Below are positions 5,925-39,826 of a stretch of DNA of 43,553 bases, piece by piece. The number at the start of each line of letters is the position of its first letter. Position 1 is the first letter of the stretch. The notes beneath the pieces were generated by a model. That model was not told where the DNA came from. It saw nothing but the letters and a program-made list of their open reading frames with translations, and did not search any database. The translations under genes were made by a program, and so were the position numbers. The DNA is taken from assembly GCA_036939975.1 (NCBI GenBank), contig JALLPB010000066.1, positions 1-43,553 on the forward strand, read 5' to 3'. Origin of the DNA: Cyclostephanos tholiformis. Its lineage: Eukaryota; Bacillariophyta; Thalassiosirophyceae; Thalassiosirales; Thalassiosiraceae.

Positions 5925-7940
5925 CTAACCTCCATTACGCTTATACTTTCTTCTGATTCCTGACGGTTTTTTCCGTCCCTTCGACTGCTTCTTCTTCCCA
6001 ACCTTTGGCCTCGACATTCCCGGTCTCCTCGTTGGATTTAACGATGTATTTTTAATTGTAGGAGTTTGATTGGTCGGTGTGATTGTTGGATTTGACGATT
6101 GACTTCCTGTTGGACTGGGCGTTGGCCTGGCACTGGGTATGCCCGTGGGGCCGGACGTATTTGTCGGTTTGTTCGTTGGATTTGACAATAGACTTCCTGT
6201 TGGACTGGGCGTTGGCCTGGCACTGGGATTACGCGTAGGGCCGGGCGTATTGGTTGGTTTGTTCGTTGGATTTGACGATGGACTTCCTGTTGGACTACGC
6301 GTTGGCCTGGTACTGGGGCTACCAGTTGGGCCGGACGTATATGGAACCCACGGGATGTTAGGATCGAGGGGGATCGTGCCAGTCAGGGGCCGCTTTCTCT
6401 CCAACATCAATTGCGCCTCACCAGCCAATCGAAGGTACCAATCTGAGGGCAAGTTGATGCCATCGGCATCCAAACCCAACCACCCACCCTCCGGCAGGGG
6501 GAGGTCAGTCGTCCTGGCGGTAACTTTGAATACTGCGGTTCCTTCGTCCACCTCGTCGAATTGAGCACAAAAAATTGTATTGATATCGTCATTGGCCGCA
6601 TATGTATATGCCTGCTTCCACATGAACTTTCCACCACTTCGAGGAACGCTGTTGATAGCTGGTCGGGGGACAATTTCTTTACTTTTGAGGTTGTGCCAAC
6701 TGAACCCCGGCCACAAGGTGGGCATGTAACGGATCCCCCTTTCCTTACAATATGCAACATCATCTGCAATATAGTCCGAGTAATATGTGTCAAAAGTAGT
6801 CGCATCATCCCATCGTCCCACATGCCAAGGATGGATTCCATCCAAAGAATCATAAATATTCTTCCATGCCGCTCCTGTCCTGGAATCGCCAACTCCATCC
6901 CGCCACCTTCCTGGAACCCCACCAATGAAAAATACTCTATACCTCCCCGCATCAGTGGATTGAAACCAGTCGATAAGATTTTGCACCCCAGTAGTATCGT
7001 TAACCGGTATACTTGTAAATCCTATCCCATAGACATGTAATACAGGCAATCCGTTCTGATGTATGTATTGGTTACTGCTCGTGATTCTCTCATTGTCCAC
7101 GAGATTAATCCAATCGTTCTTCAGCCGCTCCAAGACATTGTTGCCATTTCCGGCTATATCGTATGATACGGCAAATAATCGTCCCGTTGCCTCCGCGGCA
7201 TCCCTTACGTTTCGCAAGACTATTGTCCTCGTCGCATGTATTGGAGTATTCCCAGAGTCTGTCATGAACCTATGATGAAACGCGCCGGATATGCCGTAGG
7301 CCGCCATCCATTGAAAATGTTTCAACACGACATTCGGCCTCGCGCTCGAGAAGAATTTCGCGTATGTACCATCCGGCATCTTCACGCCCGATTCCATCAA
7401 ATCGCCGACGTCATATTCGTCGATCGCGGGATAAAAATCCACCATAACATCCTCATATGGAGGAGCGGTCCCGTTGACTCGGAACCAATGTCTCCATCTT
7501 TTTATCGGTGCGCCGTCCGCCGGATGTCCGTACCATCCCTGATATCCGCAAATGATTTGATCGTCGAGCATGTTGCTACCAATAGCGGCCGTGGCTTTGA
7601 CAGAAGAGTCATCGAATATGTCTGATAGCTCCCCCGAGGTCGCATTTACCGCGCCATCAATGCCGGTGACTTCGTGCGCTCCTCCTCGTCCTCCATCGGC
7701 ATCGGCCTCAACGGGGTTGGACGACGATGAAATGGTCCCTGCATCGTTGATTGGCATGCTCCCGACTTCATCGTCACCAACGAAGGGATTATGAGAGGCG
7801 GTTTCTTTGTAATCGATACTATCCACCCCTCTGGACACAACATCATCGGCCTCGAAGAGGTTGGCGGCGGAGGTTATGACGAGAACGCGCCTGTTACCGA
7901 CTCCGACGGAGATGAAACCGAAAAAGGACGAGAGTCTCAT
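5925..7940 (-). CDS. Secreted GH99/GH71-like glycoside hydrolase with Pro/Thr-rich repeat tail
   Basis: The gene encodes 671 aa in a single exon. A short hydrophobic N-terminus (about residues 4-27) looks like a signal peptide. An acidic linker follows to about residue 125. The catalytic-type domain (about 128-535) begins with ICGYQGWYGHP and RWRHWF and contains VLKHFQWMAAYGISG, FAVSYDIAGN, LPVLHVYGIGF and YMPTLWPGFSWHN. This pattern is typical of the GH71/GH99-like TIM-barrel proteins often labelled xylosidase/arabinosidase. The tail (about 540-640) is a tandem repeat of Pro, Thr, Ser, Asn and Gly, then a strongly basic end (GKKKQSKGRKK). The exact substrate cannot be stated. The Pro/Thr tail is of a kind common in diatom secreted and wall proteins, so an extracellular or frustule location is inferred. 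The family call is firmer than the substrate. Confidence 0.75.
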   Translation of the reverse strand: MRLSSFFGFISVGVGNRRVLVITSAANLFEADDVVSRGVDSIDYKETASHNPFVGDDEVGSMPINDAGTISSSSNPVEADADGGRGGAHEVTGIDGAVNATSGELSDIFDDSSVKATAAIGSNMLDDQIICGYQGWYGHPADGAPIKRWRHWFRVNGTAPPYEDVMVDFYPAIDEYDVGDLMESGVKMPDGTYAKFFSSARPNVVLKHFQWMAAYGISGAFHHRFMTDSGNTPIHATRTIVLRNVRDAAEATGRLFAVSYDIAGNGNNVLERLKNDWINLVDNERITSSNQYIHQNGLPVLHVYGIGFTSIPVNDTTGVQNLIDWFQSTDAGRYRVFFIGGVPGRWRDGVGDSRTGAAWKNIYDSLDGIHPWHVGRWDDATTFDTYYSDYIADDVAYCKERGIRYMPTLWPGFSWHNLKSKEIVPRPAINSVPRSGGKFMWKQAYTYAANDDINTIFCAQFDEVDEGTAVFKVTARTTDLPLPEGGWLGLDADGINLPSDWYLRLAGEAQLMLERKRPLTGTIPLDPNIPWVPYTSGPTGSPSTRPTRSPTGSPSSNPTNKPTNTPGPTRNPSARPTPSPTGSLLSNPTNKPTNTSGPTGIPSARPTPSPTGSQSSNPTITPTNQTPTIKNTSLNPTRRPGMSRPKVGKKKQSKGRKKPSGIRRKYKRNGG
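6088..6357 (-). repeat. 90-bp tandem repeat, three copies, inside the GH99-like gene
   Basis: Units start near 6088, 6178 and 6268 and share the block GGATTTGAC...CTTCCTGTTGGACT. The period is exactly 90 bases (30 residues), so copy number can change without loss of frame. It encodes the SPTGS..SNPT..PTN..GPT..PSARPTP pattern. Confidence 0.8.
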
Positions 7941-13534: not shown

Positions 13535-15877
13535 ATGCATGAGGTTTCCGAGGCAATCAGGACGATGACGCCGGTGACAATCACCATTTCCGACGCCCCC
13601 AAAGACAAGCAAGACCTGACCGATCCTCTCAAAATAATTAAGGTTTCCGAGATCGACATATACCTCTGGAAAAAGCAGCACGAGAAGGCTTCCGCCAAGT
13701 TGGATAAATATGAAATTGATATGGCCCGTGCACTCGTGCTAATCTACCACCAGTGCACCACTCACCTACAAAATGAGATCAATGCCACCGATGTGTTTCC
13801 CGGGATTAGAACTGCACAAGATCCCATTGCCCTCCTCAAGCTCATCCAAAGCCTATGCTGTTCCTACGATGCCAAGACACAGAGTGTGATGGCCACCGTT
13901 GCCTCCCACAAAAAACTTTTCACCTATTACCAAAAAGAGGGGGTCGACAATCACAAATACTATCAAGAGTTCTGCGCCCATGTAGAAACTCTCAAGACCT
14001 ATGGCGGGATCGGTGCCATTGGAATCACTCCACATTTTCTATCTGCGAAGCTTTCAGAACTTGCCAAAGAGGGTTCCATTTCCAGTGCTACTTCCCCAAC
14101 AGACGACAAACGGATGAAAGCAATTCTCCTCGTTCGCGATGAATTTCTCGGGTGCCTCATGCTCAGCGGCGCTAATAAAGATCGATATGCTGCCCTCAAG
14201 TCTGACCTACATAACCAATATGGTTTTGGCATGGATCTTTACCCGAAGTCACCGGATCAGTGTCTCTCCTTACTTAACCATCGCTCCGACACCACCATCC
14301 GTACTCCCTGCCAACAGTACCAGAAGCCTAATATGCCAGTGGTCAAAGAGGAAGACCAAGCTCTTGTTTTTGCTCAAGGCTCTACCAACCAGAAGGGTAC
14401 TACAAAACACCGTGATGATACCTCCAAGCAATCCTCTGCATCTTCCACCTCCTCCCGACAGATAAGAACTGTCAAATGCAAACATTGCGGCAAGGTGGGT
14501 CATACTTCCAATGTGTGTCCAGAGGCCAAACCCCCCGCGCAAATTCATGCCATCGCAACGACGGACGACGCCTCCGACGCCAGTGACGACTCAAGTGTAT
14601 TAATTCTTACACAGATCCACGATGCCACCAACCCCGGGGACACGTCCGACGTTGTCCTTGCTCAGGAATCAAATCCTCCCTCTCACCGTGCTCCCGTCAA
14701 TTCTGATTTGGTTCTCCTTGACAGCCAATCCACCGTCAATTTATTCACCAATCCCAACATCGTCCACAACATTCGCCCTGCAGAGAATCCCATCCAAGTA
14801 CATTGCAACAATGGCTCTATGACAACCACCGAGGAGGCGGATTTTGGGGATACTCCTGTGTATTTCAATTCCAGCGGGATTGCCAACGTCCTTTCCCTAT
14901 ATTGTCTTGGGAAGAATTTCAGGGTTACATACGACAGTACTGATCGCGGCGGTGTGTTCCAGGTTCACACGACCCATGGCCTTGTGGAGTTCAAGCCTAC
15001 CCCAAAAGGCCTCCATGCTCTCGACCTCCAACAACACCCTCATGCTGCATATCTTCTCGTCAATGATGCTGACTTGCATTACCCTGCGGACACACCTCCT
15101 CAACCACAAGTAGGAACTGTCCGCTCTAACTATGATGGCTTCTCCCGCAAACAAATTGCCAATGCTGCGGAGGCACGTTGCCTCTTGGGCATGATAGCTT
15201 CTCCATCCAATCGTGATTTTGAAGGGTTGGTACGTCATAATATGATCAAAGACTGCCCAATTTCGATTGCTGATGTTAAAAATGCTCACAGAATTTTTGG
15301 CCCAGACCTAGCCACCATACGGGGAAAGACAGTACGTCGCAAACCTACTCGTGTTGTCACGGACTATGTGGATATCCCCAAAGAAATTATTGATGTCAAT
15401 CAGCGGGTCACATTGGCTGCTGATATCATGTTTGTTGATTCGGTCCCATTTCTTGTGTCGGTGTCCAGAAACATTAACCTAATCACAATTGAACACACAC
15501 CTCAACGGACTGCTTCTACACTTGGTCTTCTCCTTCAACGTATTGTTCGGGTGTATGCACGTGCGGGTTTCACCGTGCAAACAGTCCTCATGGACAATGA
15601 GTTCGAAAAAATCCATGATCATATCCCCATGCTGGCTCTGAACATTCCTGCGGCCAACGAACATGTTGGTGACGTGGAACGTTGTGTACGGGTCATTAAG
15701 GAACGCGCACGCGGGCTAATATGCACACTACCATACTCCAAGATTCCTCAACTCATGTTAATCCATCTCCTGCATTTTGTGGTCATGTGGTTAAACAATT
15801 TCCCTACACGCGATGGCATTTCAGTGGACTATAGTCCCCGTGAACTCATCCTTCGACATCGCCTCTCCTACAAATGA
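13535..15877 (+). CDS. copia gag-protease-integrase part of the polyprotein
   Basis: 780 aa are open from this ATG. The gag part comes first. A CCHC zinc knuckle, CKHCGKVGHTSNVC, lies at 14477-14518. The protease site reads LLDSQSTV near 14709, a DSQS variant of the usual D-S/T-G. The integrase core has D (ADIMFVD, about 15420), D (LMDNEF, about 15588) and E (GDVERCV, about 15672). The frame is open upstream to a TGA at 13493 with gag-like residues on both sides (FDNTGVHNAAMFH before it, LQKIADYIQLNYM after it), so the natural start is probably earlier and broken. The part ends at TGA 15875-15877, and the same frame continues with the conserved HCRASFGAYCE right after it. So this is an interruption in one polyprotein, not a natural end. 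Confidence 0.85.
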   Translation: MHEVSEAIRTMTPVTITISDAPKDKQDLTDPLKIIKVSEIDIYLWKKQHEKASAKLDKYEIDMARALVLIYHQCTTHLQNEINATDVFPGIRTAQDPIALLKLIQSLCCSYDAKTQSVMATVASHKKLFTYYQKEGVDNHKYYQEFCAHVETLKTYGGIGAIGITPHFLSAKLSELAKEGSISSATSPTDDKRMKAILLVRDEFLGCLMLSGANKDRYAALKSDLHNQYGFGMDLYPKSPDQCLSLLNHRSDTTIRTPCQQYQKPNMPVVKEEDQALVFAQGSTNQKGTTKHRDDTSKQSSASSTSSRQIRTVKCKHCGKVGHTSNVCPEAKPPAQIHAIATTDDASDASDDSSVLILTQIHDATNPGDTSDVVLAQESNPPSHRAPVNSDLVLLDSQSTVNLFTNPNIVHNIRPAENPIQVHCNNGSMTTTEEADFGDTPVYFNSSGIANVLSLYCLGKNFRVTYDSTDRGGVFQVHTTHGLVEFKPTPKGLHALDLQQHPHAAYLLVNDADLHYPADTPPQPQVGTVRSNYDGFSRKQIANAAEARCLLGMIASPSNRDFEGLVRHNMIKDCPISIADVKNAHRIFGPDLATIRGKTVRRKPTRVVTDYVDIPKEIIDVNQRVTLAADIMFVDSVPFLVSVSRNINLITIEHTPQRTASTLGLLLQRIVRVYARAGFTVQTVLMDNEFEKIHDHIPMLALNIPAANEHVGDVERCVRVIKERARGLICTLPYSKIPQLMLIHLLHFVVMWLNNFPTRDGISVDYSPRELILRHRLSYK

Positions 15878-15940: not shown

Positions 15941-18661
15941 ATGAAATCTCGCGCTCTACCAACTATCTGCCTCGGTACTACCGGCAACTTTCAAGGTTCT
16001 TACAACTTTCTTAATCTGGTTAGTGGCTTAGTCATCAAACGGCGATCATTCATTGAACTTCCTGCCCCTCAATCAATCATCAATCGTGTCAATGATCTGG
16101 CGGCCAAGTCTGGTGTTTCCACTGACCTCGTTTTTGCCAATCGGCAACGTGTTCCTTTCACCTGGAACACAAATCCCGTGGACATGGACACGCAGGTCAC
16201 ACAACAACAAGCTCCTTACCCATACCCTGACATACCCGCTGAGATGCTGGGGGTGATGATCCAACGGAATGAGGCTGACCAAGTCCCCTCTGCTACTTCT
16301 GACCTCCCCGTCGACACTGATTGGACTAGTCTTGCTGATGCTGCTGCGGATAACGTGGATTTGGACACTACCATGCGTCTCCCACCACCCCCAGACATCA
16401 TAGACGTTGATGACGAGGATATCTTTCACCTACCACTTTCGCCAACGGTGTCTCCACTCAGCCCGAGAATTCCAAAAGTAGAGCCCTCCCCTCTTCCTCC
16501 TCCTGCAACTCCTGCTCCATCTCCCCCGCCATCACGTTATCCCTCACAAATCGTCGTCCGCCTTCCTATCTTAACAATTTTGTCTTCACAACAGTATCTG
16601 CCACCTGATCACCCTTATCATGCTGCCAATGGTTCGACGGTCGTTCTAGCCATTCAAGATGAACGTCGGATGGCCCACATCTGTCATTATGTTATGACTC
16701 ACACGGCAAATTCCCTGTACTGTGCAGAGACCATTACACCAAAAAAGAGGCAATATGGCCTCAAGGCAGGCCTAAAAACATTTACTGCTCGGGGCCATGC
16801 TGCCGTCTCTAAAGAACTTACACAATTCCACACTCTCAAGTGCTTCCAACCTAAAGACCCATCTACCCTTACCCGTGAAGATCGCCGCAATGCCCTCACG
16901 TCTCTCATGTTCTTGACAGAAAAAAATACCGGCGAGGTCAAAGCTCGTGCCTGTGCTAATGGTAGCACCCAACGTGTTCATGTTGCAAAAGAGGAGGCCA
17001 CTGCCCCCACTGTCACTTCGGAGTCAATTTTCATTCAGAGCACAATCTTTGCCCATGAGCAACGGGACGTGGTTACCTGTGACATTCCTGGAGCTTTTCT
17101 CCACGCAGACAACCCGGATTACGTCCTCATGAGGCTGGATGGCATCCTTGCGGAACTCATGGTACAGGTTGCCCCATCGATCTACCGCAAATATGTTACA
17201 ACCAACAAACATGGCAAGCCAGTTCTCTATGTTCAGTTGGTAAAGGCGGTCTATGGCATGATGAAAAGTGCTCTTCTATTTTATCGTAAACTGGTCGCGG
17301 ACCTTACCTCGCTTGGTTTCACAATCAATCCGTACGATCCTTGTGTTGCAAACAAAATCATTAACGGCAAACAAATGACAATCTGCTGGCACGTCGATGA
17401 TTTGCTTTTGGGCCATGATGACCTTCGAGTTGTCTCCGACTTCCTCTCTTGGCTGGCCTCTCGCTATGACACGGCCGACAAAAAATTAACAGTCACACGG
17501 GGCCACCATCATGATTACCTCGGAATGACGATTGATTTCACCACCTCTGGTGCTGTTGCTTTTGACATGATCCCTTACATCAACAAAATCCTGTCTGCCT
17601 TTCCTGAAAAAATTACGGGGGTGACTTCTTCCCCTGCAGCAGATCATCTCTTCCAAGTTTGTTCCCCCAAAGAAGCCAAATTCTTACCTGAGGAACAGGC
17701 CCATGCATTTCATCACACAACTGCCCAACTCCTATTTCTCTCTCGCGTTCACCGGGACATCCAAACAACCGTGACCTTTCTAACCACTCGTGTTCAACGC
17801 CCTGATGAAGTATATTGGGATAAACTCAAACGAGTTCTGAAATACCTTCGTTCGACTCGTTCCCTTCGCCTCACTCTATTTGCAGACTCTCTCACGGACA
17901 TCCATTGGTACGTTGATGCATCACACCTCACTCACGATGACTGCAAAGGTCACACAGGCTCCATTCTCACGTTTGGAAAAGGTGCTACAACCAGCTCCTC
18001 CAACAAACAAAAACTTCCCTCAAAAAGCTCCACCGAAAGCGAACTGATTGGACTTTATGACAAAGTTGGGGACATTCTATGGACACGTAACTTCATGGAA
18101 GCTCAAGGATATACCATTACCACCAATATAGTCTTTCAGGACAACATGAGCACATTATCCCTGGCAAAGCACGGTCATATTTCAAGCTCCAAACGAACCA
18201 AACACATCAAGGCAAAGTATTTCTTCATCCACCATTACCACAATTCGGGTGAGATTGATCTCCGATATTGTCCTACGGAAGAAATGTGGTCAGATGTCCT
18301 TACTAAACCTCTCCAAGGTCTCAAATTTAATCGACTGTGTGCCTTCCTTATGAACTGCCCTGTAGATTATTCTGAAGAACCTCCCTTTATTCCATCTTCT
18401 TGTCCCACTTCTGCTCCGCCTCGTGTCAAACAACAATCTACGCTCCCTCCACATATACCTTCGTCCACTCCAACTCTTGCTCCGATGAAGTCTCGAGACA
18501 CCTTGCCCAAGTCTTCATCGCGGGGGTGTGTTCGGACACATGGGAAGATGGTTACTTGGCAGGATGTAGTTGCACCACATGCAGGCCTAGCTGACGTGGG
18601 ACCTACCCTAGAGTCTCCCCTCTCCCCAGAGTTCGACCAAAATCGGTCACCACTCGAGTAG
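15941..18661 (+). CDS. copia reverse transcriptase-RNase H part of the polyprotein
   Basis: 906 aa are open from an ATG in the same frame as the gag-integrase part; without the TGA at 15875 the two would be one protein. The first 280 residues are the linker after integrase, rich in Pro and Asp. Reverse transcriptase follows: VVTCDIPGAFLHAD holds the first catalytic Asp (about 17070-17110), and WHVDDLLLGH is the YVDD-box equivalent (about 17385). RNase H has WYVDASH (about 17908), SSTESELIGLYD and the downstream Asp in FQDNMSTLSLAK. The last 44 residues, including MVTWQDVVAPHA, are coded inside the 3' LTR. The stop at 18659 lies about 131 bases into it. The RT and RNase H domains look intact. 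Confidence 0.87.
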   Translation: MKSRALPTICLGTTGNFQGSYNFLNLVSGLVIKRRSFIELPAPQSIINRVNDLAAKSGVSTDLVFANRQRVPFTWNTNPVDMDTQVTQQQAPYPYPDIPAEMLGVMIQRNEADQVPSATSDLPVDTDWTSLADAAADNVDLDTTMRLPPPPDIIDVDDEDIFHLPLSPTVSPLSPRIPKVEPSPLPPPATPAPSPPPSRYPSQIVVRLPILTILSSQQYLPPDHPYHAANGSTVVLAIQDERRMAHICHYVMTHTANSLYCAETITPKKRQYGLKAGLKTFTARGHAAVSKELTQFHTLKCFQPKDPSTLTREDRRNALTSLMFLTEKNTGEVKARACANGSTQRVHVAKEEATAPTVTSESIFIQSTIFAHEQRDVVTCDIPGAFLHADNPDYVLMRLDGILAELMVQVAPSIYRKYVTTNKHGKPVLYVQLVKAVYGMMKSALLFYRKLVADLTSLGFTINPYDPCVANKIINGKQMTICWHVDDLLLGHDDLRVVSDFLSWLASRYDTADKKLTVTRGHHHDYLGMTIDFTTSGAVAFDMIPYINKILSAFPEKITGVTSSPAADHLFQVCSPKEAKFLPEEQAHAFHHTTAQLLFLSRVHRDIQTTVTFLTTRVQRPDEVYWDKLKRVLKYLRSTRSLRLTLFADSLTDIHWYVDASHLTHDDCKGHTGSILTFGKGATTSSSNKQKLPSKSSTESELIGLYDKVGDILWTRNFMEAQGYTITTNIVFQDNMSTLSLAKHGHISSSKRTKHIKAKYFFIHHYHNSGEIDLRYCPTEEMWSDVLTKPLQGLKFNRLCAFLMNCPVDYSEEPPFIPSSCPTSAPPRVKQQSTLPPHIPSSTPTLAPMKSRDTLPKSSSRGCVRTHGKMVTWQDVVAPHAGLADVGPTLESPLSPEFDQNRSPLE

Positions 18662-20123: not shown

Positions 20124-23100
20124 ATGGATTGTACCGGCGCAGTGGCCGAACTGAGGCCTCCATCTCCGACATCATCCTCGGTGATAAAATCCCTGACATC
20201 CAATTCTAAATCGAAACACCATTCCAGGGGGGGGGGGATCTCCCTGGCAGAGGCATTGGCGACGTCTGTCGCGGATTACGTATGCGACAAAAAACAAAGG
20301 ACGCCGATCAACGGGGTTTCGTCTGCAGTTAACTCCGCGACAATGACGATGACGACGACGGTGGGTGTGGATAGAAATTCGACGCGACAAATTCGACTGC
20401 TGGTTGGCTCCGTGGAAAAGTGCAATGCGGCGCTCGACGACGCGTCGAATGCCCCTGACTCCACGTCCACGAGGACCATGAATCGATCCTCCATGAGTTC
20501 TGCCGTGGCAGATTTAGCAAGTGGGATGAATATTTTCGGCAGCGGCGGCGGCGGAGTGAGATCCGAGGAGATTTATTGTCAAAGTAGCAACAACTGCGGC
20601 TCGGCGCCAATAGTCAGCGGGACCGCCGCGGCCGTGCTGGCACTTCACAACGCGTCCTGCTACAATAATTCTAACTACGACAATATCGTTTCCTCGAATT
20701 CTTCCATGGGATCTGACGAGAGAAAAATGATGATTGTGACTTCTGCCTTTGCCGTTACCGCCGGGGTGGAGTCAAAAGTTCTGACGGGGTCGGGCCAAGC
20801 CGTCGCCGAAGTGGCTCCTAATGAATCTTCCCCCACCCTCGCTGCCGGCAACGGCAAGAACAACGACAACGGCGATAAAAATAAATCCCATTCGCCATCG
20901 TTAACATCGTCATCGACGGGGAAGTTCCAAATTCGACACTCGGACGGTGCGCCGATTATTGCCGGGACCGCCGCCGCCGCGCAAATGAAGGCCATTGTCA
21001 CCGCCACTCAAATCACGAGTACTACGACAAATGTCGATGATAGGGGAGGAACGATGGGGAACGGCGATTGCGGCACTATTACTTCCGTGGCCATCTTGGG
21101 GCCGAGGGGGGATGAAATCTCTAATTTGAATAATGGTGGGAGTGTCGGGCATGATCATCATCGCAGAGTTGACGTTGGTTATGGAAGAGTGGGGGAGACA
21201 TACCAAAGGCATGGGTTTTCGTCATTGGGGGGAAGAGGGGGGGAAGCAGGATCTGCGGCTACTGCTGTGGCTACGATAACCAATCAGGGTTTCAGCGCGA
21301 TATCGTGGGTGGACCATCGTTCTAATAACGCAAGAATCACTCCCGACAATGGATCTTCTGCTCCTAAAGTATGTCCGCTGGATCATTCGTCTGCCCATCA
21401 AGCGCCCTGGGCTATCTCGTCAACAACAAGTACCCTGGCAGGTGGGATGGATATACTCGCTGAGATTACGTGCCACGCACCTCCCTTGCCACTTTCCTCA
21501 ACTTTATCACACACATCTACCACCGGATCAACTACTACTGTGTCCGCCACAAAAAATATCAATATATATCCACAACAAAATTACAAAATATCATCCTACC
21601 AAGAAATATATCATCAAGCTATGTCGTCGTCGTCATCTCAAGAACAGCATTCACAATCCCATCAAGCTCTGGAACATGAGCAAGTGCCACACGTAAGGTT
21701 GTCGCCCCAAAATGCAAAACGCGTATTGGCCATTCCAACGTACCAAGAGATTTATCGTGAAATGGGTATTTCTCCCAAAGATGGGCACCACTCCGGGCAA
21801 CGTCATCACTCAAACTTTAATTACTCAGTCGAGGAAGTGCCGGTTGATTCGCATCACTTTTCTCCTCGACAATCCGAATCTCTTCATTCACTAACAATGC
21901 ATCACCAACATAATAATCCCCCATCCTCCAGCGATGATCCTACGAAGCTTCTTTTGTCCAATCAATGCCAATCAAATTCACGTGCACCAACGGCACACTT
22001 TGGACATGTTAATCGAGAAGATATAGAGGAGGGAAAGGAATTATACACGCGGAAGGACTTGTGTCGATTTGGTGGACATATCAGTGAGATGAAGGACTTT
22101 CACGGTAATATGAAAGATGGGTGTGACAGTTTAGTTGTTGCAAATATGGTACGTCCCAACGAGAGTTTTTGATACATCATTTGCAACAATGTTCTCATGA
22201 CAATTTTTTTGGGGGGGGTCACCTTTCTACAACAAAGGAAAAAGATCTTCGAGAAAGTGATGGACTACTCTGGTTCCTCCTATCCACCGATCGTACCAAT
22301 GGAGGAGGAGCACTTTGTCAATCCTATCATAAAAAACGGCCCATCCGAATCTTTCGTTCATCCCTTCTTGGCGGGAAATACGCCCCCCCCTTCTTGGATG
22401 TCGAAGATGATATCGAAGAAGATTCAGATGTCGCTTATAGATATGATGGATTATACATGGTGCGTGCAGTTTGGGACATTCAAGGTCAGGAAACGGAATC
22501 CCATCCTGTCTCTGGAGAAAATGGATGGCAAACCTACTTCTTCACACGATTGCCCAAAAAACCGCTGGAAAAAGGGAAATGGGAAGATGGTATGGAATAT
22601 AATGCCATGGGCTGTCAAGAACTATGGAGCACGATACAAAAGATGCGCGGAGTACGAAAGCCAAAAAAATTTGAAATCCCCCCCCCTCCAACTAAGCTGG
22701 GACCTTTGAAGAAGTGTGCTATAAGTGGGGCGTTGAAGGATAGAAAAGCTGTGGGGCTTATCAAGCCTGTTGGGGATTTCCATGTTGCTGTCCCTAGGCT
22801 ACCGCCACAGGCGAAGAGTCCGCCGACAGTGCCCACGCAGAACCCAAGACGGAAGCATCACCCCCAAGAGCACAATGAATCGTTAGGGGGAGGAAGTCAT
22901 ATTCATGACGCAGATTGTGACGATGAATCTGACTCGTACAATTTGGACCAGCATCACACGTCGCAACTATCTGCACCGAAGCCATTTAACGTGGTAACAC
23001 ATCGTCCTCGACTTAATTTAACGCTTCATTCCGACAAAGCATCTCTCTCTGCTAGTAATGATGGTGTGGAGTCGAGCGATAGTGAATCATTCTCATCTGC

Positions 23101-25267
23101 ACCAAATCTAAACAGCAAGCAGAATAAGAGACGGAAGCTATCACCCACTGAGAAAAATTCAGATAATTGTGATGCCGCTGCCTTTATTCCGAAGCGCGCC
23201 ACGGCCGCTAAGGCGGAAGCTGCCAATAGGGACATGTTTGGCGGTTCGAAAAGTCAAAACCGAAAGTCGTCTGAGTCCGCGTCATCTGAAACCGGGGTAA
23301 AATTACCAATGCGAAATGGTGCAGGACGAACACGCACTAGGATACGGCACCACGATGAAATTGATTCCTCTTCATCAGAAGAATGTAAGCCAAAGTATTT
23401 AGTTGATCAATCCATTATCACAATAGGTTCGCGTGTCCTTGTGGCCTACAAGGGGGCTCTTTACAAGGCCACAATACGCAAGCGTCGTGAGAAAGCTGAA
23501 AGACATGACTTCCTGATACATTACGACGGCAACAAAAAATCGAACGTTCATTGGATACCCGTTGATGATATCAATAAAATTTTGGAGATCAATGTTGACA
23601 CTCCACCTAAAAAGAACAGCTCTGCCGCCAGTGTTGGTGTTGGAATGAAAGGTGCAACGAAAAAGAAGGAGAATAGTGCTGTAGACAATCGGAAAGGACT
23701 AGTGAAGCAAGAAAGCCTTGAGAGTAGTCGCAGTAAGGGAAGTCAGGAGGTGGTGCCTGCAGAAGAATCTGATATTGATGATGACCAGGACAGCGAAACG
23801 CCCCTAAATCCTATGCCCTTTGAAGAACGTGATATTGGCAAAGATGGCGGTGAGATATCTAAGTTGAATGATAATTTCTCTGAGAATGAAGAATTAGAAT
23901 CAGCCTCTGGCTCGAAAAAGAAGGTGCCAGCTCCCAAAGACGTCCCAGGGCCTGTGCTTTGCAACGCTGAACCAATTATTCCTTCTTCAGACGCTGCATC
24001 AAGAACGCTTCGAAAGACCGTTGTCAGTGATTTCCTCATAGCCGAACCAAAGAATTGTTCTGAAAAGGAAAAATCCATTGTTTCGTCCAATCACAATAAA
24101 ATTGAGATAACTCTAACTGACAAGGCCGATGGTGATAGTAATGTTGATGGAAGCGGAAACGAATCCGACGGAATCTCAACGAGTATTTCTGACAATGCCA
24201 AACAAGAGCAGGATGCAGATGAGCTTATGGCTGAACTGAAGTATCCAGTAGGGGGGCATGTCTATGTGGAATACCGTCAAGTTTTTTATTCCTCCACAAT
24301 TCTCAAGACCAGGCGGAAACGTGCAACTGTAGAATATCTAGTTCACTATGAAGGATACAAGAAATCGTCAGATACATGGGTGAAGGAAAATTCGCTCCAT
24401 GAGGTAAATGAATTGACGACGAAACGTTTTGAGGAGCAACGGATAGTGCCAGCGGATAATATTTATGAATCCGAACAGCCCTTGGAGTTGAGCACAGCGT
24501 CACGAAGGAAAAAGGTGCTTGCACTTGATACTCTGTCATCCGATAATTGTGACAACTCCACAACTCAGAAGAAGCCAGCCACCAATAAATTGAGGTCGGA
24601 TGCATCCGATGCCAGGTTAGACGCACTCGAATCTGGTGTAGCTTTCCTGGCAGGTTCCATGGTCTTTGTTGAATGGTCTGGCGCGTTACACCTTGCCAAA
24701 ATGCTCAAGAAACGATATGCAGGGGAACGCATGGAATACCTAATATCTTATGATGGGTATGATAGCAATCACGATACTTGGGTTTCGATTCGTAAGATTT
24801 ACGAAGTCAATCCACAAACGAAACGGGTGTACAAGAAACTCAATCTCGACATGAACATTGATGGTAAGAGGAAACAATGCGCGCCTCCATGTCTCGAACA
24901 AAGAGAGACGAGGAAGAAGGCTAAAATTGACGATGGGCGAAATGGGATAAGCAGGCAACCAACCTCCCGTTCATTATCTCGGGCAGCTGAGCAGTTAGGG
25001 CGTACTATCTCCTCTCTAAGCGGTGACATGCTGAAGATTGATCCGGGAGTGGAATTCCTCCCCGGCTCAACCCTTTTTGCCGAATACAAGGGTGGTCTAT
25101 GCCTTGCGAAGATGCTCAAGAAACGCGGCAAGGGCGAGTACATGGAATACTTTGTCCAGTACAATGGCTTAAAGAAGGCAGAGGAAGCGTGGGTGTCCAC
25201 AACATTGGTATATGAAATTAACCCTCAGACGAAGAGATTGTTTCGACAGCTATCGTTGACTAAATAG
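20124..25267 (+). CDS. SRA (YDG) domain protein with four chromo-barrel/Tudor-knot repeats
   Basis: Two exons are proposed, 20124-22148 and 22238-25267, joined by an 89-bp intron (donor GTACGT, acceptor CAAAG, phase 0), giving 1684 aa. The join restores an SRA domain: GGHISEMKDFHGNMKDGCDSL before it and DLRESDGLLW, RPIRIFRSS, KYAPP, YRYDGLYMVRAVW and FFTRLP after it (about residues 625-810). Four repeats follow near residues 1064-1129, 1342-1402, 1477-1539 and 1612-1679. Each has the pattern G-x-V-hydrophobic-V-E/A-Y-x-G-x-L, K-x-R, Y-x-V-x-Y-x-G-hydrophilic, W-V, as in MRG15/MSL3-type chromo barrels. The long N-terminus is Ser/Thr/Asn-rich with two YQEIY motifs and two API(V/I)xGTAAA motifs. 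SRA domains read modified or hemimethylated DNA and chromo barrels often read methylated histone lysines, so a nuclear chromatin reader is inferred. No catalytic domain is seen. Confidence 0.8.
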
Positions 25268-25454: not shown

Positions 25455-26906
25455 TTAGTTCTTTGAAATCGATACTTCGCAATTTTGCATGAAATTGAAA
25501 TAGCACCAATTCGGACCATCAAATTTCATATCAAACCAGTAATTGACTCCCACAGTTTCACATGTCTGCGTTACTCGATGATACCAAAGCGATGGAATAT
25601 ACAGCATCTCTCCCTCTGATAACAAAATTTTTATTGGATGAGCTCTTTTTAGGAGAGGAAATTTTCGGTCGCCATGTTCAGAGTGCTTCAGTATGTCTGG
25701 TTCGATCCATTTCGTTTTGTATGATTTGTCTTCGTCGTCGTCCTGTCTGTCATCAGCGATTACAACCCAAGATGGGCCGTGCTGGTCCTCTGACGAGGAT
25801 TGAATCGGACAAAATGTCCCAGTGGCAAACAGATTCTCGTGCAGGAAGGGAGCATCCGCCGGTGGACACAGTACAAACTCCTTCTGACCCGAACAGACAT
25901 AAAATAGATTTTCATAGTGATCCTTGTGCATGGATGACACGGAGCGTTCGTTGCCAATCCACAAGTTGATTGCCTCCGGTGGTCCGGTCCCGAAGGCTCC
26001 CTCGGCGAACGAGAACGTTGTGGGGAAAATCTTCGTCGAGAACAACTTCGCCACTTCTGTTCGTAGACAGTCATTCTTTCCTCGGTATGGAACGGAGGAG
26101 CGCCAGTTACGTTCGTGAATAATATATATTTGTGAGTCTAGTTGAATCATATCCGTCGTCCATTCTTATATCGTACCTGTTTCGAGTAGTAGACAATTGG
26201 AGAGCGCCCGACACCATCAACGAAACTTTTTGTGTCGCAATATTCTATTCCTTCGTGACCAGAATGACGATGGAGTGGAAATTCACCAAGGCCGTGATGC
26301 GTCGATCCAACCGCGCATTCTGGGCCATTATTCGTCGATGGAACTTCGCATCCTGGATTTCTTCTCCTTAGTAGGTCACGGAACGTTTTGATATCCATCC
26401 TCTTCTCGTGCGGCTTGACGAACATCCGCCGTAGCCTCGGCGTTTCGCTTCCAACCATTGCGTCCATGACGTTTCTGACGCAATCGCCATATCCGTCGGG
26501 GGTAACATCCACGGTGAGTATCGTGTCGTCCCCGACATGACGAATGATGTCATCCAGTGTCAGACTCAGGGGTCTTGTATAGCCATCGGCGTCGGACGGG
26601 ATGGCGTTCTTGATGATGCAGGGAATATTTGGGCGAACATAGTCTGCGAATTAGTGATCGACACAAAATTCGAACATGAACATTATTATTATATTATTGA
26701 ATTATACACTTTCAATCAAGACGATATCAACATGAAGAATATTCGTTGCATGCAGCAGCATGCCCCTTCCTATGGTAATCACCTCGAAGGAAAGTAAACG
26801 AATCTGGCGGGGAGGTCAAGACTGCAACGGGGCGGCACCATAGTCCGCCAACGTCGTCGGAAAGAATCGTTAAGGCGTCTTCGTCTGCGTGGAGTGTTGT
26901 CGCCAT
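25455..26906 (-). CDS. JMJD7: JmjC-domain lysyl hydroxylase, JMJD7-like
   Basis: Three exons are proposed: 26906-26783, 26643-26177 and 26075-25455, with introns of 139 and 101 bp, giving 403 aa. The joins restore conserved blocks: FTFLR-DYVRPNIPCII across intron 1, and YYSKQ-NDCLRTEV across intron 2. VDVTPDGYGD is a JMJD7 hallmark. INLWIGNERSVSSMHKDHYENL supplies the Fe(II) ligands His and Asp, and the second His is in LWYHRVTQT. GVNYWFDM and YFNFMQ close the domain. The family are 2-oxoglutarate oxygenases; human JMJD7 hydroxylates a lysine of DRG GTPases. The protein is longer than human JMJD7 (about 316 aa), partly from an acidic insert (DDRQDDDEDK). It is convergent with the SRA gene and divergent to the next gene. 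Confidence 0.85.
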
Positions 26907-34093: not shown

Positions 34094-35318
34094 TCACTCG
34101 GCATACTGGTAGTGATTCTCGTCGATGGTAGAATATATGTGGCCCTCGTTGGAAAGATTATTTATGACCTTCTTTATCTCCATGGCGGAATATCCCTGCG
34201 ATGATACCTGCGCGGTAATATCGTCGATGTGTATGCCGCAATCAGAAGTCGCTATTAAAGGGGAAAGGAGAAAACAGAATGGACGATCGGGGGGGGGTAG
34301 AGGAGAGAAATACGAAGTGAGGGTTAGAGAAAAAAAAAAACGATAAAATACTAAACGAAAAAAAAAACGAAAGGAAAACTCACGACCCATCGTCTTGATG
34401 ACGTGGATGACGGCGTCGTCCAATCCGCTTCCCCCCCCCCCCCCGCCGCCGCCGATGCCGTATCCTCCCATACCCATTCCAATCCCCCCTCCCCCTCCCC
34501 GCGGCGGCGCCGAGACGGATGCCATCTTGCCGATGCCGATGCCCATGCCCATGCCCATCATGCCGGCGGCCTGCGAATCGCTCCGCATCTTCATGTGCCT
34601 CTCGTAGGAGTGCGCGACCTCCAGCAGGTGGTACGTCAGTTCGTTCCCCGAACTCACCGGTCGCACGTCGTTCGCGACGATCTGCCTCTGTCCGTCGAAT
34701 TCGCGAACCTGCCCGACGATGCGTATGTAAGCGTGATCGGTCGACGCGTCGCGTCGGAGCGCCGACGCCATGCTGCACTCGTCCCCCTCGTTGACCCAAA
34801 CCTTGACCTGCACGAGTCCAGTGCCGTCCTCGACGTCGATGAAAACGTTCGTGGACCGCTCCTCGTGCTGACGCACCGCCGCGACGAGCTTGACCATGTG
34901 CAACGGCCGGCCGTCCGCCAACGTTAGGTCGGTCCCACCGGACGGATCGCCCAGCGCCGAGTGCACCATCTTGGCGGTGATGGGTATGAGGGTCTGCTCG
35001 TCGTAATTCCGTCGCGGCTTGCCGGTGCCGTCGGCGGAGGAACCTCCTCCCCTCGAGGGCGTATCGCCGCCGTTGTCGAATCCGCCTTCCGTTTCGTGTT
35101 TTTTTTTATTCATTCAGTTGATATATTTTAGTCGGACGGGAGGAGGCGGGGATGGGGGGGGAGAGCGTATTAACGCGATGATAATTTTCGGGGCGGATGG
35201 ATGATGAGAGATTGGAAGACATGATATAATTCATAAAATATATAGCTCGGTGAACGATCAAACGTCGATTCGCCACTTTCAAGGAACACGCCCACCACTC
35301 ACCGCCATAGCCACTCAT
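34094..35318 (-). CDS. RPA2: Replication protein A 32-kDa subunit (RPA2)
   Basis: Three exons are proposed: 35318-35303 (16 bases), 35085-34384 and 34251-34094, giving 291 aa. The tiny first exon adds MSGYGG, and the join (GTGAGT/GGAAG) gives MSGYGGGFDNGG, the Gly-rich start typical of RPA2. The OB fold is at about residues 35-165: IPITAKMV, LVAAVRQHEERSTNVFIDVEDGTG, AYIRIVGQVREFDGQRQIVANDVRPV. A Gly/Met-rich linker holds a G14 run. The C-terminal winged helix reads IDDITAQVSSQGYSAMEIKKVINNLSNEGHIYSTIDENHYQ. RPA2 is part of the single-strand DNA-binding trimer of replication and repair. The second intron (132 bp, GTGAGT/AATAG) is a multiple of three without an in-frame stop, so retention would not break the frame. 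Confidence 0.9.
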
Positions 35319-35931: not shown

Positions 35932-38125
35932 ATGAGAATGAGGCTTCGCGTCCTAACACTTGGCTCCACGCTAATGGCGATCCCCGCCGCCAACGCCTTC
36001 GTCGGGCCGTATTCAACGTCGCACGGCTCGAGGGATGTGTCGGGCACCGTCACCCTGCGCATGGGAGGTCGGGCCGGAATGGACGCATACGACGAGCAGA
36101 TGAGGAGGGCATCATCGTCGTCGTCGTCGAACACGGTCGCATCGTCGTCATCGACATCATCGCCCGCCGCCGGGGATGACAACTTCAAGTCGAGTCCCCG
36201 ATGGAGGAAGAAGACGAAGCAACTCGCGACCCTCGGTCCGGCATCGTCCACCTTCGAAATGATCGAGAAGCTCTTCCTGGCCGGCGCCGACGTCTTCCGA
36301 CTAAACTTCAGTCACGGCGAGCATGCACAGAAGAAGGAATTATTGGACATCATCCGTTCCGTCGAAAGGAAGTACGATCATCCCATCGCCATACTTGGCG
36401 ATTTGCAGGGTCCCAAGCTTCGCGTGGGCACCTTCGGCAATCCCGATGGCGAATTGCTCAAGAAGGGACAGATTTTTCGCTTCGATTTGTTGGACTTGCC
36501 TGGTACGGCAGACCGGGTTCGTTTGCCGCATCCGGAAATCATCGAGGCGAGCAAGGTCGGACACGTGCTGCTCATCGACGATGGCAAGGTGAAGTTGCAA
36601 GTCGTGGAGACCGGTCCGGGTTATTTGGACTGCGTCGTCGTCGTGCCTGGCAAGATCAAGGACAAGAAGGTTCGTTTTTATTTACTTTATTTACCATTGT
36701 AGTTTGTGTCATTGTTGTCGTTGCATCTTCGTGAGAGAGGGACGTGTGTGCTTCTTTCCTCGCGTTGTCATCGTCATTCCTCTCTCTTACGCCGCCGTTT
36801 CTCCCTATCGAATACATGTATATATTTCATTTCCATTCACAAGGGCGTCAATACCCCCGATTCTATCCTACAGATTAGCTGCCTGACAAAGAAGGATCGC
36901 GAGGACCTGAATTACATGCTCGGCATCGGCGTCGATTGGGTGGCATTGAGCTTCGTCCAACGGCCGGAGGATATCGTCGAGATCAAGCGCCTCATCATGG
37001 AATATAACCCGACGAATGCCTTCCCGCCCCACGTCATGGCTAAGATCGAGAAGCCAAGTTGCTTCGTCGGGGATTCCCTCGAGAAGATCGTGCAGCTCTC
37101 CGATGGCATCAGTGAGTAATACTTTCTACCCTTGCGCCGTGCCAATGTTTTCAGGATATTAAGATCATCGAATCTCAAGAGAATATGACATGCATCCTTC
37201 TTTACGGCCCCCGATGCCCAACAACCGCACTACATATATATAAATAACAGTGGTCGCACGTGGTGATTTGGGCGTCGAATGCGCCCCGGAGGATGTCCCG
37301 ATCCTCCAAAAGACCATCATCGACAAATGTAGGAAGCAGGGTAAGCCCGTGGTCGTCGCGACTCAAATGCTCGAGAGCATGATCGACAATCCGACGCCCA
37401 CCCGTGCAGAGGCGTCGGATGCTGCCACGGCAATATACGACGGTGCCGGTAAGAGAGGATATTTGTTTTCGTGCATCTATTAGAATTGTTGTAACGTCGC
37501 GAGACTGGATACGTGGCACTAACATCGATTTCCGACTTTTTGGCATGCACCACCCCCCCTCCCCCCCTCCCTTACAGACGCCATCATGCTCAGCGCCGAG
37601 AGCGCGGCCGGGATGTACCCCGAGGAGGCGGTGTTGATGCAACAGCGCATCATCAACAGGGTCGAGGGCGATCCTCACTACTCACTTTACCTGACGAGCA
37701 ATAGGCCCAAGATCACGGACGGCACCTCCGCGAGCGCGATCATCCTCGCCGCGCGGCAGATTGCGACGAACGTGAATGCGAAGTGCATCGCGAGCTTCAC
37801 GGTTGGCGGAAATACGGCCCGCCTCGCATCGATGAAACGACCGGAGCAGCCCATACTGGCCATCTCGCCGCTCATCGAAACTTGCCGTCATCTCGCCATG
37901 AGCTGGGGCGTTTACCCTGAATATTGTGCCGAGGGCGTCCTCGACACCGATAATTTCCGCTCAATGCTTGCAGTGGCCTGTGAGATTGGTCTGAAGAAGG
38001 GCTTGGTATCGAATGATACGGACCTATTGGTCGTCACGGCCCTTGAAGAACCTGACCATGAAGCCAAGCGCCTTTTGGGCGACGACGGGCTCCACGAGGA
38101 TGTCGTTGGAGCATCGTGTCAATAA
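35932..38125 (+). CDS. Pyruvate kinase, probably plastid-targeted
   Basis: Four exons are proposed: 35932-36669, 36844-37111, 37251-37448 and 37578-38125 (introns of 174, 139 and 129 bp), giving 583 aa. The enzyme makes pyruvate and ATP from phosphoenolpyruvate and ADP. The domain starts at [13 protein letters not shown] and has [36 protein letters not shown] and MAKIEKPS. Across intron 2 it has [11 protein letters not shown], and then [24 protein letters not shown]. Across intron 3 it has [12 protein letters not shown]. The C-terminal regulatory domain ([26 protein letters not shown]) is present. The N-terminus is hydrophobic and ends AANAFVGP, a signal peptide plus Phe like the diatom ASAFAP motif, so plastid import is inferred. 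A Ser run (about 36111-36165) links presequence and enzyme. Confidence 0.9.
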
Positions 38126-38162: not shown

Positions 38163-39116
38163 TCATTTCATCCTCCGCTGGGGATTCTCTTCCTCGCCGA
38201 TGTTGAAGTAAAATCTCATTGCATTCCGATAAGTTGCGTCCGCCACGTCTCGAACTTCCATGTCCAGCGCCGACGCAATCCCCGCCAGACCCTCCAGCAT
38301 GTCGTCCCAAGCGCACGACGAATCCTCCAAGTCCGTTTCCAGTAGGACGAGCTGATCGATTGTTCCGATTTGCCTCATTATTGAGGGAGTCTTGGGGGAG
38401 TGGAAGTTTGGAATCGCCTGGACGTGGGACGCGGAGACGGGGGGGGATAGATATTTGGCATTCAGTTAATATACACACCGGCCAACGACGAGGAATGACG
38501 AAAAAGGAAAAAGGGTAGCCACCAGAAAAAGTCATGAAAACCCCCTACCGGCGCGAATCCGAAATAGACGTCCCCCTCCGGACGTTGCCCCTTTCGCACG
38601 CCGCAAGGAGCGACGGTATCATCCCCGCCTTGCCAGAAAACGAGTGGAAGTAAATTTTGGGCGGAAGGAGATATCGACCCCTCCATCGACGTTTGGCCTT
38701 CGTCCTGCGTCGTCCCTCGTTCGACATGGGCACGATGGATTGTTCGCCATCTCTCCTCCTGTCGTCGTCCTCCATCCCCCGAACATCGTCGATATCCATC
38801 GCGTGGCGATGCCTCCGTGTCATCTCATCCCTGACGCTAGTTAAGGAATCGAGCAGCTCGCCCCAAGCCCCCACCACGTGTATGCTAACCGGTCGTCGCA
38901 TCTCCGTCGCCAGCAGCAGCTGACGCTCGAACGCGTATCTCTGGACGTTCATCGGACACGAGAGTATGCGCTTCCTATAATTTCGAATCGTGGCCGTCCC
39001 CCCGCCATCCTCCTCCTCGATCACCTCCCTCCATCGCATGCCGTCCAGACCGATTTCCCCAACGATCGCGTCCGGACGATCGATTAGCCATCGTTTCAAA
39101 TCGACGATCCATCCGA

Positions 39117-39151
<35 letters not shown>

Positions 39152-39504
39152 GGGTCCGGCAATACCTCGTGCAAAAACCACGGATGGATGCCGTAGCACG
39201 GCACCAGCACCTTCCCGTCGAAATTCGAGCACGAACCCGACGTCGTCGTCGCCATCGATGTAACGATCGGATAATCCCTCGGATGGGTCGACATTAGCGC
39301 CGCTCCCGCGAACGAGAACGACGGCGCCGCGCCCACGTCGTCGGAACTCGACGGATACGACATCGACAAATCGGCACGACGATGTCGATCCTCGCGGGGG
39401 GGGAGGTGGTCGACCGCCATCTCGGTAAGCATCGCGGTTCGTAATAGCGGTTCGATGCCACCGGGTCCCAGGTGATAGTGACAATGACAGTCGAATAACC
39501 TCAT
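38163..39504 (-). CDS. TatD-family metal-dependent nuclease (one frame break)
   Basis: Two exons are proposed, 39504-38549 and 38417-38163, with a 131-bp intron (GTAGGG/CCAG) that joins YFGFAP to AIPNFHSPKTPSI. The family has a TIM-barrel metal site, seen here as FDCHCHYHL (HxH), CYGIHPWFL, VGEIGLDG (Glu), VSIHVVGAWGE (His), IYFHSFSGK (His) and VLLETDLED (Asp). So the active-site set is complete. The frame shifts between FSGKAGMIPSLLAACERGN and DVYFGFAP, near the C5 run at 38572-38576. One missing base there would explain it, either a sequencing miss or a recent mutation. Asp runs coded by a GTC microsatellite (about 39118-39150) enlarge one loop. The start ATG puts MRLFDCHCHYH at the N-terminus. 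The 3' end is 37 bases from the pyruvate kinase stop. Confidence 0.8.
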
Positions 39505-39826
39505 TGGCGTTTTATTCGTTCGTGAGAGGCAGGCATGCGACCGGACCGACGAACGACGGCCGAGGTGGCGCGCTTGGACGCGGACGGCGGGAGAGATACC
39601 TCTAGCTAGAGTCAAAACTCAACTATCTCCGATCCGAGGATGCGGGGGCCAGGGAGGGGGCGAGGGCGGTGCCTCTCCTACCCCCGCCTGCCCCCCACCA
39701 AAAAAAATCCAACACTGATAAATACATACCAGTTCCTACATCTATATACGATACGCACGCTACCATACCTCTCCTCCTCTTCTGAAAATTCGGTGGAGAA
39801 GTGCCGCCATCGCGCGCAGGTGCACG
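39505..39826. other. Divergent promoter region between TatD and the kinase fusion
   Basis: 322 bases between two start codons. AT-rich stretches near 39700-39760 (ATATACGATAC) might be core promoter. No gene is seen. Confidence 0.4.

Follow-up and report, generated by a model that had tools for sequence, protein, structure and literature searches.

SRA (SAD/YDG) domains are known from several kinds of proteins with which the locus described here can be compared. UHRF1, UHRF2 and the plant VIM proteins combine an SRA domain with a histone-reading module, which in UHRF1 is a tandem Tudor, and the pocket segment and finger of the UHRF1 SRA domain read hemimethylated CG. The plant SRA-SET methyltransferases SUVH4/5/6 are chromatin proteins with the same domain, and TagI is a bacterial modification-dependent SRA restriction enzyme. 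Chromo barrels, in turn, are found in MRG15/Eaf3, MSL3 and Tip60. Here we describe a gene of the diatom Cyclostephanos tholiformis that joins one SRA domain to four chromo barrels. It lies in a stretch of 43,553 nucleotides (the window; assembly GCA_036939975.1, contig JALLPB010000066.1, forward strand) and encodes a protein of 1684 residues, hereafter the window protein. Like UHRF1, UHRF2 and VIM, this protein pairs its SRA domain with a putative histone-reading module; however, a Pfam scan up to E 1 found no UBL, PHD or RING domain but four MRG/MSL3-type barrels instead, and its pocket loop and finger differ from those of UHRF1 and VIM. The same scan listed neither a SET domain, unlike in SUVH4/5/6, nor a C-terminal MRG domain; no nuclease was found in it, unlike in TagI, and the four barrel copies, two with a broken cage, set it apart from MRG15/Eaf3, MSL3 and Tip60. 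It has the same SRA domain as a family of proteins that unite an AlkB dioxygenase with SRA (AlkB-SRA proteins), the same four barrels as one subgroup of them and N-terminal motifs in common with one member, P0040; unlike them, it lacks an AlkB domain as judged by a family profile.

The gene occupies two exons on the plus strand. Exon 1 (20124-22148), an open frame for residues 1-675, comprises an N-terminal half without a Pfam domain and the beginning of the SRA domain, and its start is backed by similar starts in the relatives P0004 and P0012. Exon 2 (22238-25267) encodes residues 676-1684 and the stop, comprising the remaining SRA domain and the four barrels. Joining the two frames yields exactly 1684 residues plus a stop; the intervening intron (22149-22237, plus strand) has 89 nucleotides with GT...AG borders, is in phase 0 and interrupts the SRA domain, as a first-pass annotation made from the letters of this stretch had proposed. 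The junction (ANM/EKD) is free of gaps in P0012, a transcript-derived Skeletonema protein from MMETSP that reads ANLEKD, and in the database proteins P0004 and P0005 (Thalassiosira), P0013 (Cyclotella cryptica) and P0015 (Skeletonema menzelii). Five open reading frames (ORFs) from other genomes that cover exon 2 only (P0006, P0023, P0024, P0026 and P0027) run through unrelated residues and then enter the family sequence at the same residue; hence, the intron position looks conserved. The presence of such exon-2-only ORFs in the protein database also bears out the expectation that gene callers would split the gene in two. That many database ORFs comprise exon 2 alone might be taken to mean that the intron is unspliced and the two frames are separate proteins, but this is highly improbable in view of the gap-free spliced relatives, the transcript-derived one among them, and of an SRA domain that exceeds its profile cut-off only after joining. 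The observation of one spliced gene with an SRA domain and four chromo barrels is thus confirmed.

The SRA domain spans residues 626 to about 785 (21999-22567, plus strand, interrupted by the intron). Against the Pfam SAD_SRA profile, with a curated cut-off of 30.7 bits, exon 2 alone scores 29.3 bits; once the exons are joined, the segment reaches 44.3 bits (E 2e-11) and the whole protein 40.2 bits. A search of PDB sequences with the single SRA segment returned no SRA chain, only growth factor chains (best E 0.017), so that a family profile was needed; this recovered TagI as the best match (E 9.2e-15), followed by SUVH5, SUVH6 and UHRF1. The SRA fold is likewise supported by the folds of relatives, which match UHRF1, UHRF2 and SUVH. 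The core of the domain (W, RE.DG and YRYDGLY) is strongly conserved across genera, W687 being a tryptophan in 26/26 rows of the window type (defined below) and RE.DG near-invariant, which suggests that binding is retained. Alignment, rather than residue-by-residue superposition, indicates that the GGY loop and the finger are altered while the aromatic and acidic core is kept; in P0050, an AlkB-SRA protein, the aligned finger is about 16 residues shorter than that of TagI. The YTG motif of TagI survives in a YTS/YAV-like form in AlkB-SRA members without barrels. The column of its tyrosine is Y in all 12 barrel-less AlkB-SRA rows; it varies among the 26 window-type rows (Y in 14, F in nine and L in three, including the window protein) and among 21 rows of the AlkB type, the barrel-less P0076 included (I in 10, V in seven, F in two, T and Y in one each). 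DNA binding by this domain is likely. The first-pass proposal that it recognizes modified cytosine fares less well: with changes in both the flipping loop and the finger, reading of 5-methylcytosine (5mC) is plausible but uncertain.

With the Pfam Tudor-knot profile (cut-off 20.8 bits), the joined protein scores 88.4 bits (E 2.9e-25) over four stretches, in agreement with the four barrels first read from the sequence, and both profile and fold identify the MRG/MSL3 type of chromo barrel. Searched singly, barrels 1, 2 and 3 score 26.7, 41.8 and 33.9 bits, all above the cut-off, and barrel 4 falls under it (17.6 bits, E 0.0037); the latter has barrel strands in the model of relative P0018 without a listed fold match of its own. 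Barrels 3 and 4 had been called nearly alike: they are indeed the most similar pair, but at 32/58 identical residues (55%, against 17-21/58 for the other five pairs) the wording was somewhat strong.

We located the columns of the aromatic cage through an alignment with fly MRG15, whose cage positions we take to be Y26, Y46, W49 and W53. All four barrels lie on the plus strand: barrel 1 (residues 1072-1129, 23426-23599) has Y,Y,N,N, a broken cage; barrel 2 (residues 1347-1404, 24251-24424) has Y,Y,Y,S and mostly keeps it; barrel 3 (residues 1481-1538, 24653-24826) has H,Y,Y,H plus W and keeps it in part; and barrel 4 (residues 1618-1675, 25064-25237), with C,Y,L,E, has lost it. We then scanned 99 proteins, the window protein and 98 fetched ones, with a profile made from the window protein's own barrels; it found barrels in 61, of which 60 have four and one (P0017) has three. 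These 61 divide into 39 of the window type (the window protein and P0001-P0039 except P0031) and 22 of an AlkB type; 14 of the latter show an AlkB domain, whole or in part, and the other eight are ORFs without AlkB that were assigned by similarity. With the three-barrel P0017 omitted, 38 window-type and 22 AlkB-type proteins entered the cage counts. The last two positions of barrel 1 are N,N throughout (38/38 and 22/22, that is 60/60); in barrel 2, all 38 window-type proteins show Y,Y,Y followed by S or A. In barrel 3 the first three positions are aromatic in 37/38 of the window type, and the third is non-aromatic in 22/22 of the AlkB type; in barrel 4 the first and third are non-aromatic in 38/38 of the window type, and three aromatics are present in 19/22 of the AlkB type. 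Which of the two late barrels has a cage thus depends on the branch: the AlkB-less branch keeps that of barrel 3 and loses that of barrel 4, and the AlkB type mostly does the opposite. Judged by the aligned residues, only barrels 2 and 3 of the window protein retain most of the cage and barrels 1 and 4 are broken. The idea of multivalent histone reading by all four barrels was not borne out, given N,N in barrel 1 in 60/60 proteins and a barrel 4 without a cage in 38/38.

A search with the SRA part gave 39 proteins from 293 candidates, with Tudor-knot in 39/39, a precomputed SRA match in 29 and a precomputed AlkB match in one. Most family members come from metagenomes and the named sources are diatoms; the layout of SRA and four barrels, which the first-pass annotation wished to see sought in other diatoms, occurs in Thalassiosira, Skeletonema and Cyclotella, with no T. 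pseudonana protein seen among them. The database names of these proteins include ‘hypothetical’, ‘Chromo domain-containing’ and ‘alkylated DNA repair dioxygenase AlkB’, the wider family being an AlkB dioxygenase-SRA core with varying tails. As an example of another chromatin-reading tail on this core, P0077 has SAP and CW domains attached to AlkB-SRA. In the parts of the literature covered by our search we found no description of AlkB-SRA or SRA-chromo-barrel proteins, although an earlier mention in comparative-genomics works is possible; the claim that no protein with this layout had been described stands to that extent, but the layout is a branch of the AlkB-SRA family and not an isolated one. 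The available part of one study lists a class named ALKBH12 that fungi share with diatoms (PMC3265494) and that may or may not correspond to the AlkB-SRA group.

Common SRA ancestry with the AlkB-SRA family emerged from a tree of 41 of the 77 SRA-matching proteins, namely those spanning most of the core. Its 14 window-type rows form one clade (support 99/100), and in 10 of them, with at least 400 residues ahead of the SRA core, the absence of AlkB is demonstrable. The 30 rows of the window and AlkB four-barrel types separate from 11 barrel-less AlkB-SRA rows with support of 86/97 and several long branches. The family AlkB profile found no match in the 1684 residues of the window protein, and no AlkB stretch was found on contig C66 with P0040 and P0050 as queries. 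The N-terminal half has a conserved motif, SLAEALATSVADYVC (residues 40-54, 20241-20285), which a pattern search detected in the window protein, P0001, P0004, P0012, P0013 and P0017; its form in P0013 and P0017 is looser. Three further motifs on this plus-strand exon are shared with the AlkB-bearing P0040 in BLASTP comparisons that are weak alone: APIVSGTAAA (residues 161-170, 20604-20633, E 0.095), APIIAGTAAA (residues 276-285, 20949-20978, E 0.006) and GGMDILAEITCHAPP (residues 440-454, 21441-21485, E 0.006). From these comparisons the window protein is assigned to an AlkB-less branch of the AlkB-SRA family, and loss of AlkB in its branch would be the simplest, if unproven, history. Both iron ligands of the AlkB domain are replaced (N.N or S.N) in P0041-P0047, P0067, P0070-P0072, P0082, P0084 and P0086-P0088, which are likely pseudo-dioxygenases, and retained in other AlkB-SRA relatives. 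Scans of prokaryotes and viruses with an AlkB-SRA alignment left the iron-ligand part of AlkB (query residues 173-237) unmatched in 54 genome and five viral loci: no match starts before residue 254, which places them all within the SRA part or immediately ahead of it. The scans rely on two short peptide patterns that may miss relatives, and separate AlkB genes nearby were not searched for.

With somewhat better than even confidence, we propose that the window protein acts in the nucleus as a chromatin reader without catalytic activity, and that it derives from an AlkB-SRA-four-barrel DNA dioxygenase targeted to chromatin. The ancestor would have been an enzyme oxidizing DNA bases in chromatin, and the window's branch would have lost the AlkB domain and kept the targeting parts. 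The SRA domain would bind DNA, probably near modified cytosine, barrels 2 and 3 would bind methylated lysine on histone tails, and barrels 1 and 4, their cages lost, may make another contact with DNA, RNA or protein. Such a protein could act on the sites of its enzyme-bearing relatives by marking or protecting them or by competing for them, or could recruit the methylation machinery to them; it would then provide the link that UHRF1 provides elsewhere. Of the earlier suggestion that the protein couples the reading of DNA methylation to that of histones, a link between DNA marks and histone marks is still the best idea, though without four-barrel multivalency and with 5mC reading uncertain.

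Several observations weigh against this proposal. The SRA pocket is atypical, with the finger loop missing and a leucine in the window protein where 12/12 barrel-less AlkB-SRA rows have tyrosine; near the place of UHRF1 Y466 (with Y466/D469 taken as the presumed UHRF1 numbering) it has a glutamate, in a register uncertain by one to three residues. One cage position of its barrel 3 holds histidine; among the 38 window-type proteins, all 37 others have Y or F there. The root that favors AlkB loss over gain has the 86/97 support noted above, with long outgroup branches, and one row within the four-barrel group, P0076 (565 residues), has AlkB and SRA without a barrel match, which may reflect a shortened or barrel-less form. 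Finally, Pfam describes Tudor-knot as RNA-binding. This last point, the group-wide broken cages of barrels 1 and 4, the conserved short motifs and the long, low-confidence linkers of a modelled relative would also suit a scaffold in which the SRA domain no longer reads a base but serves, together with the barrels, to hold nucleosomes, RNA or partners in a complex, as barrels do in MRG15 or Tip60 complexes. We consider this unlikely, since the strong conservation of the SRA core across genera points to retained binding.

An equally doubtful alternative is a maintenance factor like UHRF1, whose SRA domain reads hemimethylated CG and whose barrels read H3K9/H3K27 methylation, recruiting a diatom DNMT. 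The SRA sequence and fold do match UHRF1, UHRF2 and SUVH, and the same genome has a C5-cytosine methyltransferase ORF of 602 residues on contig C425 (dcm superfamily model, 174.9 bits). Against it, UBL, PHD and RING are missing from the Pfam matches, and the pocket segment and finger used by UHRF1 are not kept. The available portions of the published accounts report that the transposons of diatoms carry CG methylation although DNMT1 is absent, that loss of DNMT5a abolishes CG methylation in Phaeodactylum and that T. pseudonana appears to be without DNMT5a (PMC9998398, PMC8566409, PMC9861306), and that the methylation of transposable elements is coupled to H3K9/H3K27 methylation (PMC9998398, PMC8566409), a setting in which such a factor would fit.

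The same genome has a second SRA gene, an AlkB-SRA relative on contig C411 (5295-7072 and 2050-2196, locus L010), in which visual inspection of separate frames gave the AlkB ligands H.D, a more distal H and two R. Its coding sequence is broken into different frames, its middle part is repetitive and one of the matched stretches contains TAA, so that the gene may not be intact. We rejected it as a four-barrel sister of the window gene because only one barrel was seen, and dropped an intron position common to AlkB and AlkB-less genes as evidence because its break lies elsewhere in the SRA domain. A Pfam AlkB search over the genome gave no matches, probably owing to this split, and whole relatives as queries did find the gene. 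In the possibly incomplete assembly (1566 contigs, 24.95 Mb), we found no AlkB gene with four barrels; if the assembly is a mixed bin, the C411 gene could come from another organism. Within the window, a Pfam scan of ten neighboring ORFs revealed no clear functional link to the SRA-barrel gene. About 1.5 kb upstream lies a Copia-type reverse transcriptase (RVT_2, 15941-18661, plus strand, 56.5 bits), preceded by a 780-residue ORF without a Pfam match (13535-15877, plus strand), the two likely representing a retrotransposon. Convergent with the 3′ end of the gene is a Cupin_8 hydroxylase-like ORF (25455-26150, minus strand, 160 bits; JmjC below cut-off). Farther away are a PT-repeat protein (5925-7940, minus), an RPA C-terminal/OB-fold protein (34094-35113, minus), part of a pyruvate kinase (35932-36702, plus) and a TatD DNase (38545-39615, minus).

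Hoguin et al., 2023, in the part available, call for more work on accessory proteins of the UHRF1 type, which link DNA marks with histone marks (PMC9998398). What is new here is an AlkB-less reader within an AlkB-SRA family with exchangeable chromatin-reading tails. Tentatively, and with less confidence than for the window protein itself, diatoms and perhaps related algae may have a chromatin-targeted system of DNA base oxidation not built on TET/JBP, in which the AlkB-SRA enzymes would carry interchangeable tails for reading histones (four chromo barrels, CW, SAP plus CW, PHD-type fingers) and be counteracted or steered by dead-enzyme and enzyme-less paralogues, such as the window protein, that read the same sites. 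The family would thus supply both a candidate reader, the window protein, and a candidate eraser, its AlkB-SRA relatives, along with a natural gradation in which the enzyme is first intact, then lacks its iron ligands and is finally absent from a reader, and Cyclotella cryptica has both an orthologue (P0013) and reported 5mC.
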